Shown: piece by piece, positions 1,554 to 6,600 of the stretch
How the letters are laid out: each line of letters starts with the position of its first letter
How positions within the stretch are numbered: position 1 is the stretch's first letter
Source: an uncultured Collinsella sp.
GTDB lineage: Bacteria > Actinomycetota > Coriobacteriia > Coriobacteriales > Coriobacteriaceae
Assembly: GCA_900754745.1 (NCBI GenBank)
Contig: CAAEEB010000090.1
Coordinates: forward strand, 1 to 16,818
DNA: 16,818 bases
Reading direction: 5' to 3'
The notes under the pieces: model-generated
Databases searched by the model: none
Told to the model about the DNA's origin: nothing
What the model saw: the letters and a program-made list of their open reading frames with translations, nothing else
Program-made: the position numbers and the translations under genes

Positions 1554-1578
1554 GCGCTGTGGAGGGAGGGTGCCCCGT

Positions 1579-1629
1579 AAGGAGTGTCCCAAACTGCCGG
1601 CAAAAAAGGAACGTCCCTATCTGCCGCAT
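1579..1629 (+). repeat. Direct repeat, copy B, right of the ATPase gene
   Basis: This copy matches 66-100 at 32 of 35 positions and lies 25 bases after the ATPase stop codon. The half-unit pattern is clear here: GGAGTGTCCC-AAA-CTGCCGG, then GGAACGTCCC-TAT-CTGCCG. It has the same orientation as copy A. The rest of the gap, 1630-1665, shows nothing I can name. Confidence 0.7.
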
Positions 1630-1665
1630 TCCCGAAGCAAGGCAACGCCGATGTTTTGGCAACGG

Positions 1666-1811
1666 CAGCGAGCGGGCCGCATTTGAGACAAGGTGACGTG
1701 AAACGAAAGGGCGCCGACCTTCTGGTCGCGCCCTTGAAGTTGAACGTCAGATTGTCCAAATGCGGCCCGCGCAGCGTCGGCAGGTTACGGCGTTTGGTAA
1801 AACGCCGTAAC
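1666..1811. repeat. Structured composite element, copy 1, directly after lacC
   Basis: A 146-nt element with the same layout as 3910-4056. In order: a CAGCGAGCGG edge (1666-1675); an outer stem, 1672-1690 with 1753-1770 (18 pairs, one bulged A); a middle stem TGACGT/ACGTCA (1694-1699 with 1744-1749); and an apical stem, 1707-1719 with 1724-1735, with one bulged C and loop TTCT. Next come the linker GCGCAGCGTCG (1769-1779) and a perfect 12-bp hairpin, GTTACGGCGTTT (1784-1795), loop GGTA, right arm 1800-1811. The last hairpin sits one base from the lacC stop codon. There is no U-tract on either side, so it is not a standard intrinsic terminator. Which strand acts is unclear. Confidence 0.75.
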
Positions 1812-1812
1812 T

Positions 1813-2748
1813 CTAAAGCTCCGTTACTTCAACGCTGTTGTAGACCTCGTCCCAGCGATCCATGACCAGGTGGCCGGTCTTGGGATCCATGGCGTTGAGC
1901 TTGCCGCAGGTATTGGCGGTCTTGAGCACGGTGACGTCGTCGGCACCAGCAGCAATGGCATGTGCAAAGCCGGCGATGGTCGAGTCGCCGGAACCCGTCG
2001 CGTTCACAGCCGCAATCGCGGGCGTCTTGGCGCGGAACGCGCGGCCCTCATGGAAGCCCACCGAACCGGCAGCGCCCATCGAAACGACGACCCAGGGGAT
2101 ACCGGCAAAGCGGTCATCGGCGGCAAGCGCCTCGCGCAGGGCATCGACATCATCGGTCGTAAAGGACGTACCCAGCAGGCCGTTAATCTCGGTCAGGTTG
2201 GGCTTTACGAGCTCAGGCTTAGCGTCGGACTCCAGCGCGGCTTCCAGCGATGCACCCGAGGTGTCGAGCAGCACCTTGGCGCCCGCCTCCTCGGCGATCT
2301 TGACGAGCTCGGCATAGTAGCCGGCATCGACGCCACGCGGCAGCGAGCCCGAAAGCGTCACGACGTCCGCCTTCGCTGCAAGCTCGGCGAACTTGGCCGT
2401 AAAGGCCTCGAGCTCGGCCGGGGCGATCTGCGGGCCGCTCTCCAGCAGCTCGGTCTGATTGCCCTCGTGCAGAATATTCAGGCAAATGCGTGTCTCACCG
2501 GCGATGGGCACAAAGTCGTTCTTGACGCCATCGGCATCCATAAGCTCAGCCATATAGGCACCCATGTGGCCGCCGAGCAGGCCGGTCGCGAGCACGTCGT
2601 CGCCCAGCTGCAGCAGCACACGGCTCACGTTGAGGCCCTTACCGCCAGCGGTCTTTTCGGGCGTCACACGGTTAACATCGTCGATGATCAGCTTGTCGAG
2701 CTGATAGCGCGTATCGATCGACGGGTTCATGGTAACGGTCAGAATCAT
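1813..2748 (-). CDS. lacC: Tagatose-6-phosphate kinase (LacC, PfkB family)
   Basis: A 311-residue cytoplasmic sugar kinase that phosphorylates tagatose 6-phosphate to tagatose 1,6-bisphosphate with ATP. It starts MILTVTMNPSID, as LacC proteins do, and carries the PfkB N-terminal signature GGKGLNVSRVL. A LacC-like segment ILHEGNQTE follows, and the C-terminal motif is ATGSGDS with catalytic Asp255. The length matches the family (about 310). The reading frame extends upstream to 2790, but I chose the ATG at 2748 because GGAG lies at a normal distance before it and family members begin there. It is the last gene of the minus-strand lacA-lacB-lacX-lacC series, 53 bases after lacX. The related 1-phosphofructokinase is the main alternative; the neighbours and the LacC-like sequence argue for tagatose 6-phosphate. 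Confidence 0.93.
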   Translation of the reverse strand: MILTVTMNPSIDTRYQLDKLIIDDVNRVTPEKTAGGKGLNVSRVLLQLGDDVLATGLLGGHMGAYMAELMDADGVKNDFVPIAGETRICLNILHEGNQTELLESGPQIAPAELEAFTAKFAELAAKADVVTLSGSLPRGVDAGYYAELVKIAEEAGAKVLLDTSGASLEAALESDAKPELVKPNLTEINGLLGTSFTTDDVDALREALAADDRFAGIPWVVVSMGAAGSVGFHEGRAFRAKTPAIAAVNATGSGDSTIAGFAHAIAAGADDVTVLKTANTCGKLNAMDPKTGHLVMDRWDEVYNSVEVTEL

Positions 2749-2801
2749 ATTGAACTCCTGTTCCGGGGCGGCATGACCCGCCCCAAACATACGATAACTC
2801 G

Positions 2802-3683
2802 TTAAAGGATCTCGATCTCAAAGCCGCGGATGACGGTCTCTCCCGGCTTGGCCACCAGGCAGCCACGCTTGTGTTCCAGAATATCGTCCTCGTCGGAGCA
2901 GGTGGACAGACCACCCCACGGCTCAACTGCCACAAAGTCGCCCTCGGGCTTGCTCCACACAATCAGGTACGGCATATCGGGGAACGTCAGGCGCACGCCC
3001 TTGTCCTCGGTTTTCTTGGCCAGCGTAACCACGCGGCTCTCGAGCACGTCGAAGATGGTCTCCACGAAGTCGAAGAGTTCGTGGGTAAGCGGCAGGTTCT
3101 GGCCGATCATGGGGTTCTTGCTGCGATGCTCAACATCAATCAGGCCCGTCGAGGGAACGGCGGTACAGAGCTCGGTGGCCTCGCACTGCTCAAAACGAAG
3201 CTCATAATCGTCATAGGACTCGCCCTCGTTGAGCGGGCACTTAAAGCCGGGGTGACCGCCCACAAAGAACGGCATGTCCTCGGTGCCCTCATTGGTCACC
3301 TCGTACGACACGGCCACCTTTTCCGAATCGATCGTGTAACGAGCAACGATCTTAAACGGATACGGGTACTGCTCGAGCAACTCGGCATGGTCGGCAGAGC
3401 TTAGGCTCAGCGCAACCATGTTGTCGCTCTGTTCCTCGAGCTTCCACTCCTGTTTGCGCGCAAAGCCGTGGCGGGCGAGCTTAACCTCGCGGCCGCCCAT
3501 GGTCATTGCGTGACCGTCACGAAGGCCACCGCAGATCGGGAAACAAATGGGTGCCTGGCCCGACCAGACCGCCGGATCACCCTGCCACAGGTACTCACGG
3601 CCGTTGGCCGCAATAGAAGTGAACGACCCGCCCGCCGTGCTCAGTGCCACGCGGATAGAACCGTTATCAAGAACAAACTCCAT
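2802..3683 (-). CDS. lacX: Aldose 1-epimerase family protein, LacX-like
   Basis: A 293-residue protein of the galactose mutarotase-like fold, similar to LacX of lactococcal lac operons. His72 (in RHGFAR), His144 (in GGHPGF) and Glu254 (in VEPWGG) fit the conserved histidines and catalytic glutamate of aldose epimerases. An early ICFPICGGL segment is also typical. It probably interconverts sugar anomers, perhaps of galactose or its 6-phosphate; the exact substrate of LacX-type proteins is not established. The frame opens at 3716, but the ATG at 3683 has AAGGGAAGG upstream and starts with the family-like MEFVLDNG. It lies between lacB and lacC on the same strand. The 377-bp gap from lacB, with a structured element in it, could separate lacXC from lacAB transcriptionally. 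Confidence 0.88.
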   Translation of the reverse strand: MEFVLDNGSIRVALSTAGGSFTSIAANGREYLWQGDPAVWSGQAPICFPICGGLRDGHAMTMGGREVKLARHGFARKQEWKLEEQSDNMVALSLSSADHAELLEQYPYPFKIVARYTIDSEKVAVSYEVTNEGTEDMPFFVGGHPGFKCPLNEGESYDDYELRFEQCEATELCTAVPSTGLIDVEHRSKNPMIGQNLPLTHELFDFVETIFDVLESRVVTLAKKTEDKGVRLTFPDMPYLIVWSKPEGDFVAVEPWGGLSTCSDEDDILEHKRGCLVAKPGETVIRGFEIEIL

Positions 3684-3909
3684 AGGAGCCTTCCCTTTCT
3701 TACGACAGCCCGCCAAGTCAATAGGGCTGATAGAAAACCGGCCCGCGCCCCCTCACAGAAACGCGAGCCGTCAATTGAAAAGCTGCAAATCGCCAAGTAC
3801 AGCCAAGAGCGAAGCACTCAAGCCAAGCAAGCAAACGTGTTATCGGAGCAGCTCGCCGTACCAGAACACTTCGCAACAACAGGGGCGATCTCACAGGTCA
3901 CTCAAACGT
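3684..3909. other. Intergenic stretch between lacX and the second structured element
   Basis: Apart from the lacX ribosome-binding site next to 3683 and CTCAAACGTC at 3901-3910 (which can pair with 3978-3988), I see no clear gene, promoter or repeat. A plus-strand frame running through here has no start context and mostly overlaps lacX and the structured element, so I do not call it a gene. If lacX has its own promoter it should lie here, but no convincing hexamer pair was found. Confidence 0.4.
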
Positions 3910-4056
3910 CAGCGAGCGGCGCTCAGGTGCCCCAGGTCGCCGCGAAAGAGGAGCGACGCGTACTTCAGTACGCGAGCGACGGTTTGAGCAGCGAGATGGG
4001 GTGCCTGGGCGGCGCGCAGCGTCGACCCGTTACGCGGTTTGGTAAAACCGCGTAAC
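3910..4056. repeat. Structured composite element, copy 2, directly after lacB
   Basis: A 147-nt element laid out like 1666-1811. CAGCGAGCGG (3910-3919) is identical to copy 1. The outer stem is 3916-3934 with 3997-4015 (15 Watson-Crick and 3 G-U pairs on the plus strand, one mismatch). The middle stem is GTCGC (3936-3940) with GCGAC (3976-3980). The apical hairpin is CGCGTAC/GTACGCG (3957-3963 with 3968-3974) with loop TTCA. The linker GCGCAGCGTCG (4014-4024) is identical to copy 1. The terminal 12-bp hairpin is GTTACGCGGTTT (4029-4040), loop GGTA, right arm 4045-4056. It ends four bases from the lacB stop codon. Stem sequences differ from copy 1 while pairing is kept. Confidence 0.75.
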
Positions 4057-4060
4057 CTCC

Positions 4061-4585
4061 TTAGTCGTGATACTCGCCGCGGTCCCACTTCTCGAGGAAC
4101 TCGTCAAAGAAGTGCGGGTCAGCCTGAGCCTCGGCGTCGGCCATGTTGCAGGCATCGATCTTGGCGATCAGGGCGTCGTGCTCGGGAGTCTTCTCGTAGG
4201 GCTCCTCCAGGAAGGCAAGCATGATATCGGCCATCAGGAACTCGCCGGTGATCTTGCCGCCAAAGCCCACGATGTTAGCGTTGAGCTCGCGACGGGCATA
4301 CAGGGCAGAGGTCATGTCGCGGACCAGGGCGCAACGGGCGCCGGGAACCTTGTTGACGGCGTTGGTGATGCCGATGCCGGTGCCGCACAGGGCCACGCCA
4401 AAGTCGGCCTTGCCGCTGGCAACGGCCTCGCCCACGGCCTTGCCGTAGATGGGATAGTGCGTACGGGTGTGGCTGTAGGTGCCGCAGTCGAGCACCTTGT
4501 AGCCAGCCTGCTCCAGGCGGTCGGCCAGATAGATCTTCTCGTCCGTAACGATATGGTCGCAACCGATTGCGATGGTCTTCTTCAT
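4061..4585 (-). CDS. lacB: Galactose-6-phosphate isomerase subunit LacB
   Basis: A 174-residue subunit of the heteromeric LacAB enzyme, which isomerises galactose 6-phosphate to tagatose 6-phosphate in the cytoplasm. It belongs to the RpiB/LacAB fold. The N-terminus [13 protein letters not shown] has the Asp-His pair (10-11), Cys67 sits in ALCGTGIGI (the RpiB/LacB active-site cysteine motif), and the C-terminus [13 protein letters not shown] is nearly identical to Firmicutes LacB as I recall it. The length matches the family (about 171). The ATG has AAAGGA upstream. It follows lacA by 63 bases on the same strand, in the usual A-then-B order. Confidence is high because the sequence is so characteristic. 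Confidence 0.96.
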
Positions 4586-6533: not shown

Positions 6534-6600
6534 AGTTGCGGTGGAATAGGGATTGTTTTGCGCCCGCCGGCCCCTATTCAGTCCCTATTTCACCGCAACT
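6534..6600 (+). repeat. Long near-perfect inverted repeat (22-bp stem)
   Basis: Arm 6534-6555 (AGTTGCGGTGGAATAGGG...) and arm 6579-6600 (...CCCTATTTCACCGCAACT) pair over 22 positions. Both departures from Watson-Crick are G-U in plus-strand RNA and would be A-C mismatches in minus-strand RNA. The 23-nt loop holds CGCCCGCCGGCCCC. It lies between lacF's terminator and the membrane-protein start, with no gene nearby on the plus strand. It may be a palindromic dispersed repeat or a small structured RNA. Confidence 0.65.

Follow-up and report, generated by a model that had tools for sequence, protein, structure and literature searches.

Paired hairpins behind lacC and lacB of a Collinsella genome: members of a repeat family of probably mobile palindromes found mostly at stop codons

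Introduction

Long imperfect palindromes located between genes and devoid of their own transposase are known as ERIC-type elements, and integron cassette arrays carry attC sites with the core sequences RYYYAAC / GTTRRRY. Repeats of the REP/BIME type (GTAG and CGTC super-families) are described in PMC3733652 as multi-copy palindromes with unpaired tags near the 3′ ends of ORFs; they are 20–40 bp long, CGTC stems have 8–9 bp, and GTAG termini often supply the TAG stop codon. According to PMC1525189 and PMC11208160, respectively, REPs are targets of insertion sequences, and IS621, a member of the IS110 family, inserts into REPs of E. coli. Among structured RNA candidates, the Collinsella-1 motif (RF01700) was named from this genus (PMC2864571) and palindromic candidate RNAs of gut metagenomes were catalogued (PMC8040213).

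Here we consider two elements found behind lacC and lacB in a 16,818-nt stretch of Collinsella DNA, hereafter called the window, together with their relatives. Like REP/BIME, the Collinsella element is multi-copy, palindromic, tagged, located near ORF 3′ ends and targeted by an insertion sequence, and it falls under a broad definition of REP-like repeats, that of intergenic palindromes present in many copies and adjoining the 3′ ends of ORFs. Unlike REPs, it has ~150 nt plus a left module, a long hairpin with constant loops, other tags and one usual orientation to the stop codon. Assignment to either super-family was therefore rejected: for GTAG repeats (20–40 bp, unpaired GTAG) the element is too long and its base tags are CAGCGA and GCAGCGTCG, while the CGTC form (8–9 bp stem, 4–5 nt loop) disagrees with a 12-bp short stem and several stems of the long hairpin. 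With ERIC, taken in its general description, the element shares the form of a long intergenic palindrome without its own transposase and differs by the second hairpin and docking at stop codons. In contrast to an attC cassette array, its copies are scattered over the chromosome, as judged by eye. Similarly to IS621 in REPs (PMC11208160), an IS110-type element occupies one point of the palindrome, but both the insertion sequence and the target are different, and the Collinsella element is the target, not the mover.

RF01700 gave no match in the window copies (E up to 10) or in 17 loci (E up to 1), and identity with a known Rfam RNA was rejected, since the window had no match and weak hits with high E-values lay far below the family threshold. 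No description of the family was found among the papers searched on repeats and structured RNAs of Collinsella, Eggerthella and Coriobacteriia, on REPs and on IS110, though supplementary tables of PMC8040213 might hold a piece of it. Six taxon terms of the Collinsella lineage are all absent from the text of PMC3733652, and that of PMC12306157 mentions neither Collinsella nor Coriobacteri-. We are dealing with a large repeat family that is present in no paper found and in no Rfam family.

Results

Architecture of the two window copies

Copy 1 occupies 146 nt (1666–1811) and copy 2 occupies 147 nt (3910–4056). They share the edge CAGCGAGCGG, the linker GCGCAGCGTCG at offsets 103 and 104, and terminal perfect 12-bp hairpins with the loop GGTA (1784–1811 and 4029–4056), while the apical loops of their long hairpins both start with TTC. 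On the plus strand copy 1 is preceded by a left module of type A, AACGCCGATGTTTTGGCAACG (1639–1665), conserved among many copies. The copy itself starts with the tag CAGCGA at the base of the long hairpin (1666–1671), which in other copies is the insertion point of an IS110-type element (between CAG and CGA, one base being ambiguous), and continues with the long hairpin itself (1672–1770; its outer, middle and apical stems vary, its internal loops are constant and the apical loop is TTCT) and the GCGCAGCGTCG tag (1769–1779), which shares 2 nt with the 3′ foot of the outer stem. Copy 2 follows a B-like left module, CACAGGTCACTCAAACGT (3884–3909), and is composed on the same strand of CAGCGA (3910–3915), a long hairpin of another body subtype with the apical loop TTCA (3916–4015, limits approximate), the GCGCAGCGTCG tag (4014–4024) and the terminal hairpin. 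A conserved module of 25–27 nt stands ahead of the edge in many copies of the family.

Both adjoining genes are read from the minus strand. The TAG stop codon of lacC (1813–1815; gene 1813–2790, PfkB kinase according to Pfam) lies 1 nt past the hairpin of copy 1, and the TAA codon of lacB (4061–4063; gene 4061–4585, LacAB_rpiB) is 4 nt past that of copy 2. Neither strand has a U-tract or T-tract after either hairpin. In all these respects, i.e. the limits and parts of two elements of the same length, their contact with stop codons and the missing U-tract, the initial annotation of this DNA proved accurate. The plus strand, antisense to lacC and lacB, is the one that folds better. Folding of both copies exceeds chance: on the plus strand none of 200 dinucleotide shuffles folded as well as segments 1633–1811 (z −11.3) and 3904–4056 (z −7.2), and z-scores for the minus strand were −11.5 for the lacC copy and −3.2 for the lacB copy. 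A scan with the sigma-70 consensus registered no promoter-like site on either strand in 1560–4100.

A terminator-like stem with a T-rich tail is located between the lacB element and lacX (3770–3739, minus strand), and its sequence is also found behind lacB in most strains compared. Since this site lies beyond the lacB copy, the lacB transcript need not end at the element.

Copy number and distribution

The nearest genome, G001, which shares 71% of sampled words with the window, gave 53 matches per window copy in a DNA search (E up to 10, many of them partial), and 28 near-full copies were found there by an iterated profile, besides two in the window. The covariance model R1, built from 21 copies, matched 35 of 58 relatives. 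Within the genus 34–49 matches were registered in 15 of 35 genomes and 0–18 in the other 20, and outside it three genomes had 1, 1 and 12; fragments and reverse-strand hits are included in these numbers, so that true copies are fewer. The exact hairpin-linker pattern was present in at least 120 stretches of named genomes, and among the matches listed all belonged to Collinsella, many being labelled C. aerofaciens.

The 12 matches outside the genus came from G052, which represents another family of the order. Among the best 11 of them CAGCGA was found in 10, one was a short fragment, and in 8 of 11 the stop of an ORF of at least 60 aa was within −1 to 5 nt. After copies of this type had been added (model R2), a class-wide sample with at most 10 candidates scored per genome gave matches in 114 of its 296 genomes and in 39 of its 125 genera, and every match was inside the order. 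Ten genomes searched deeper contained 4 to 55 matches each. Twenty copies taken from them had CAGCGA in all cases and exact GCAGCGTCG in 18; their short hairpins paired in 10–12 of 12 positions, and in 8 of 20 the stop of an ORF of at least 70 aa was within −1 to 5 nt. In a sample of the phylum, 8 of 246 genomes matched under strict filters, all of them in the order, and genomes of this sample from outside the order gave no match.

Transfer as phage or plasmid cargo was rejected: no stretch was found in viral contigs by the exact-pattern scan, phages gave no match to the element, and the sole hit in a plasmid collection was NZ_OY725717.1, a 0.9-Mb replicon of C. aerofaciens. Deposited as plasmid 6, it carries lac, pst, tgt and queA genes and looks like a piece of chromosome.

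Long hairpins that have similar internal loops but lack both the tags and the short hairpin number about ten in G001 (for instance at 250523, 1758973, 1662264, 498050, 1333802, 1559971 and 628312), and by eye several of them immediately follow a stop codon, oriented like the element. Such a tagless hairpin is also located behind lacC in some low-copy Collinsella (L221–L223).

Structure and covariation

The usual order of parts is a short left module, CAGCGA, a hairpin of ~100 nt, the GCAGCGTCG tag, a hairpin of ~12 bp and the stop codon of a gene read from the other strand. Covariation, suspected in the initial annotation from two copies only, was borne out in 100 distinct copies from 100 chosen loci: 48 helix pairs were standard in 96.6% of cells, and 39 of them showed changes on both sides. 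None of 500 shuffles reached any of the five measures used, and structures slid along the alignment paired in 29–43% of cells. The model alignment (A3) was built from 21 of 30 copies. Fitting of the 100 copies to the model biases their alignment in its favour, but an unfitted alignment of 26 of these 30 (four without the full short hairpin were excluded) gave double changes in 29 of 44 pairs predicted by RNAalifold. Chance resemblance of the two window hairpins is thereby ruled out, as it also is by shuffle folding of both copies.

Constant parts of the family are the unpaired ones, namely CAGCGA, GCAGCGTCG and the internal loops, where TGAAA..GAGGAG faces CGACGATTGAA and AAGGTG faces CAGATT. 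By reading rather than computation, the first of these loops can be written on the plus strand as repeated G.A/A.G neighbours. Outside the short tags, body subtypes have little contiguous identity to one another. CGTC is present at both tags in many copies, and the bases ahead of the short hairpin are not constantly GTAG.

Position behind stop codons

In the first set of matches, 82 of 104 had the stop of an ORF of at least 80 aa at a distance of −1 to 5 nt from the short hairpin, and in 25 of these 82 the first G of the hairpin doubles as the last base of TAG. The enlarged set comprised 179 of 188 matches (those below 125 nt were excluded), 168 of them unique and 6 too near a contig end. Among the 162 assessable Collinsella copies, 128 were −1 to 5 nt from a long-ORF stop, 12 were at 6–59 nt and for 22 a stop was not found. 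Random positions had a stop at this distance in 288 of 20,000 cases (1.4%) and random noncoding positions in 426 of 20,000 (2.1%). Grouped by gene end, 35 of 57 groups were stop-adjacent in at least half of their copies and the other 22 were not. At the opposite side of the element a same-strand long-ORF stop was found within 25 nt of the left edge of the model in only 2 of 104 matches. Outside Collinsella the association is weaker (8/20 and 8/11 in the samples described above). Adjacent copies followed TAG in 100, TAA in 24 and TGA in 4 cases, while stops of long frames in G001 were distributed as 686, 573 and 143; TAG is thus over-represented at the element, partly because of the G shared with the hairpin.

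Six copies on NZ_OY725717.1, whose coordinates coincide with those of G008:C6, were compared by eye with the deposited annotation. They lie 1, 4 and −1 nt from annotated stops of a hexose kinase gene, lacB and a DAHP synthase gene, and 1, 2 and −1 nt from those of an M20 peptidase gene, an SDR gene and queA. The next gene behind them is convergent in two cases and co-directional in four, and the position is therefore not special to convergent gene pairs. Many copies, covariation and a preference for gene ends together uphold the assumption of a repeat family, for which a covariance-model search of the class and a count of gene-end positions had been proposed along with the initial annotation.

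Such proximity to stop codons is what one might expect of a 3′-end element acting in the gene's own mRNA, where hairpins behind the stop would slow ribosome release or block 3′–5′ decay. A precedent is given by E. coli REPs located within 15 nt of stop codons (PMC12306157), and the mRNA-sense strand is still very stable, with a mean folding energy of −81.1 kcal/mol. This strand is, however, the weaker fold of the two, and close strains differ in whether a given gene has the element at all. We consider a role in mRNA possible, though rather doubtful as the main explanation.

Turnover and exchange at gene ends

Behind lacC, different strains have at least three body types at the same point, or none. 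At the lacB end G001 has 29 nt where the window has 287. Eighteen Collinsella genomes closest by LacB were inspected by eye: the window body was found behind lacB in two others, a second body in three, a truncated body alone in three, and no element in ten. It had been supposed initially that the element might be an RNA protecting or processing lac mRNA ends. This supposition gained no support, and the element is not lac-specific: it is absent from many lacB ends and also follows DAHP synthase, queA, M20 peptidase and SDR genes, by which a lac-specific regulator was rejected.

Many strains have a copy at the same gene ends. Where a gene end is represented by at least two distinct copies (37 cases), body subtypes differ in 21 and hairpin classes in 20. 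Most body and hairpin classes were found in several combinations, and left modules also combine variously. Comparison with G001 gave a counterpart for 90 copies (copies, not loci); for 53 the corresponding gene end of G001 was without one, and 4 were unplaced. Twenty-five distinct G001 sites of the unoccupied type, among the sites listed, were classified by eye. Five are ordinary T-tract terminators (1525857, 1401323, 1468383, 1341118, 799590), three belong to another palindrome family (1018520, 2210673, 690844), one is a related long hairpin without tags (498139), three are body remnants (877681, 897413, 1013375), two are short hairpins without a body (276017, 1052994) and one is a copy in the opposite orientation (1119325). 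In five the matched flank was in or beside another copy (776024, 1026938, 1641204, 1544076, 12089), and in five nothing was evident. Gene ends bearing the element were not clearly poorer in T-tract terminators (3/14 against 409/1,140 for others; 14 of 28 ends passed the ORF and spacing filters). A target duplication, which together with terminal repeats marks an autonomous IS or a MITE with inverted ends, can be proposed for one site only (1052994), which fits a CGT duplication round the long hairpin and fits slippage deletion equally.

The window has a long palindrome AGTTGCGGTGGAATAGGGA...TCCCTATTTCACCGCAACT at 6534–6600; palindromes of this kind are those at the G001 gene ends 1018520, 2210673 and 690844, where other strains have the element.

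Within single loci, 56 pairs were compared, each pair sharing one gene end and one body type. Single stem changes kept pairing through G.T in 52 cases and broke it in 45, double changes kept the pair in 16 and broke it in 2, and the change rate per site was 0.030 in stems and 0.019 in unpaired parts. In our reading the family as a whole, more than any single locus, is where the structure is maintained, being only weakly kept at the latter; the slower change of unpaired sites may reflect some constraint at the locus as well. The 16 double changes that keep a pair, as well as the occupation of the same gene ends in many strains, would suit ancient immobile hairpins inherited with their genes and diversified by gene conversion between copies. 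Against such an origin, which seems unlikely, stand the little contiguous identity shared by body subtypes beyond the short tags, the many ways in which left modules and hairpins combine with bodies, and the presence or absence of the element at lacB among close strains.

Strand preference

The least expected result is that the strand opposite to the adjoining gene folds better in 172 of 178 copies, which are related to each other and so do not provide 148 + 30 independent comparisons. With RNA parameters this strand was better in 143 of 148 Collinsella copies (mean −90.9 versus −81.1 kcal/mol) and in 29 of 30 copies from the other family of the order (−101.7 versus −85.9); DNA parameters gave the same preference (142/148 and 30/30). 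Apical loops C(UUCG)G were found on the opposite strand in 11 of 148 Collinsella and 10 of 30 other copies. On this strand G.T exceeded A.C (104 versus 48) and G.A exceeded C.T (68 versus 7). This preference fits a folded single-strand intermediate or an RNA made from that strand, and a role in the gene's own mRNA fits less well.

A functional structured RNA transcribed from the strand opposite to the gene, for instance a barrier against antisense transcription entering its 3′ end, would account for the better fold, the C(UUCG)G loops, the excess of G.T and G.A, and the coincidence of constant parts with unpaired ones. Yet the same strand is preferred with DNA energy parameters, neither a promoter-like site nor a U-tract was found at the window copies, and 45 of 97 single stem changes within loci break the pair, which means no strong selection at each locus. 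Such an RNA is therefore improbable as the general explanation.

Least of all do we expect intrinsic terminators of unusual length: terminators, too, are hairpins behind stop codons, and as judged by eye ordinary terminators stand at some sites that carry the element in other strains, but the window copies lack the T-tract that should follow a GC-rich hairpin, a consensus scan found no terminator-like site inside either of them, and a terminator would need neither constant tags nor constant internal loops.

IS110-type insertion and search for a mover

The right end of one and the same sequence interrupts the left module of 12 unique copies, which are spread over 8 gene ends. In G001 this sequence corresponds to an element of ~1.54 kb that occurs three times and whose transposase matches DEDD_Tnp_IS110 and Transposase_20. 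Two of its occurrences lie at the foot of the long hairpin, between CAG and CGA with one base of ambiguity, and the third adjoins another GC-rich hairpin. A 388-codon frame beside two G001 copies was rejected as an autonomous parent, since it is part of this inserted element.

None of the five Y1_Tnp genes of G001 had the GCAGCGTCG tag or the short-hairpin motif within 1.5 kb, and two of its three RAYT-like genes are flanked, by eye, by other repeats. A REP mobilised by RAYT, where the RAYT gene would be flanked by the repeat, is therefore not supported in G001. The idea of a palindrome recognised by a transposase, also put forward initially, stands in so far as an IS110-type element enters at one fixed point, and falls short in that no enzyme moving the element itself was found in G001.

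Orientation of the element follows two chromosome arcs in 32 of 34, 40 of 43 and 28 of 30 matches among those listed (of 45, 55 and 40). Genes were co-oriented in 14 of 17 callable windows (20 fetched), and in G001 the replication-strand orientation was observed for 22 of 28 elements and 813 of 1,207 genes. Since elements and genes are mostly co-oriented, a replication-strand bias is not separable from gene orientation, and insertion directed by the replication strand is not claimed.

Discussion

Both window elements are copies of a repeat family of the order, located mostly directly behind stop codons, and the data taken together make it probable that they are non-autonomous mobile palindromes of a REP-like kind, of which the strand opposite to the gene would be recognised in folded form. 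An enzyme acting in trans may move or exchange their modules as folded single strands, and insertion would be aimed at gene 3′ ends. The family may then have a host function as well, the hairpin pair standing in for the former 3′-end hairpin of the gene, whether terminator or decay barrier. Swaps at one address could also result from recombination between strains or copies instead of transposition.

If these mobile palindromes are what we suppose, genomes of a gut lineage hold long structured repeats by the dozen, placed exactly where genes end, and the role of a bacterial gene ending could be studied in them as a natural experiment, since a given gene may end, depending on the strain among close relatives, in the element, in a different element, in a terminator or in nothing. 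The elements are, in addition, natural landing sites of IS110-type elements in human gut bacteria. A much bolder proposal, to which we give little credence so far, is that stop-codon-docking mobile elements work throughout the order with the strand opposite to the gene, that a two-hairpin nucleic acid with tandem G.A loops faces polymerases or forks from behind the gene, and that gene endings are exchangeable cassettes sharing their sites with terminators.

Several other repeats were noticed in the vicinity. The window has a repeat of the type GGAGTGTCCCAAACTGCCGGC...GGAACGTCCC at 1581–1625, and such repeats adjoin many copies of the element. In G001 many copies are adjoined by repeats GTAGTCATT..GGGGACGTTC..AATGACTAC, which in form are like the GTAG-type repeats beside two RAYT-like genes of this genome. 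An AAA_14/DUF4143 ATPase gene (252–1553), preceded by direct repeats of the CCCACATT type (123, 156, 189), lies between the lacC element and a hairpin at 1–40 that resembles the terminator behind lacC in other strains; this gene looks like an insert separating the lac end from its terminator. Finally, arms like TGTTACAGATYAAGA and its complement occur in four places of the window segment 12046–12195, forming an operator-like set of inverted repeats.
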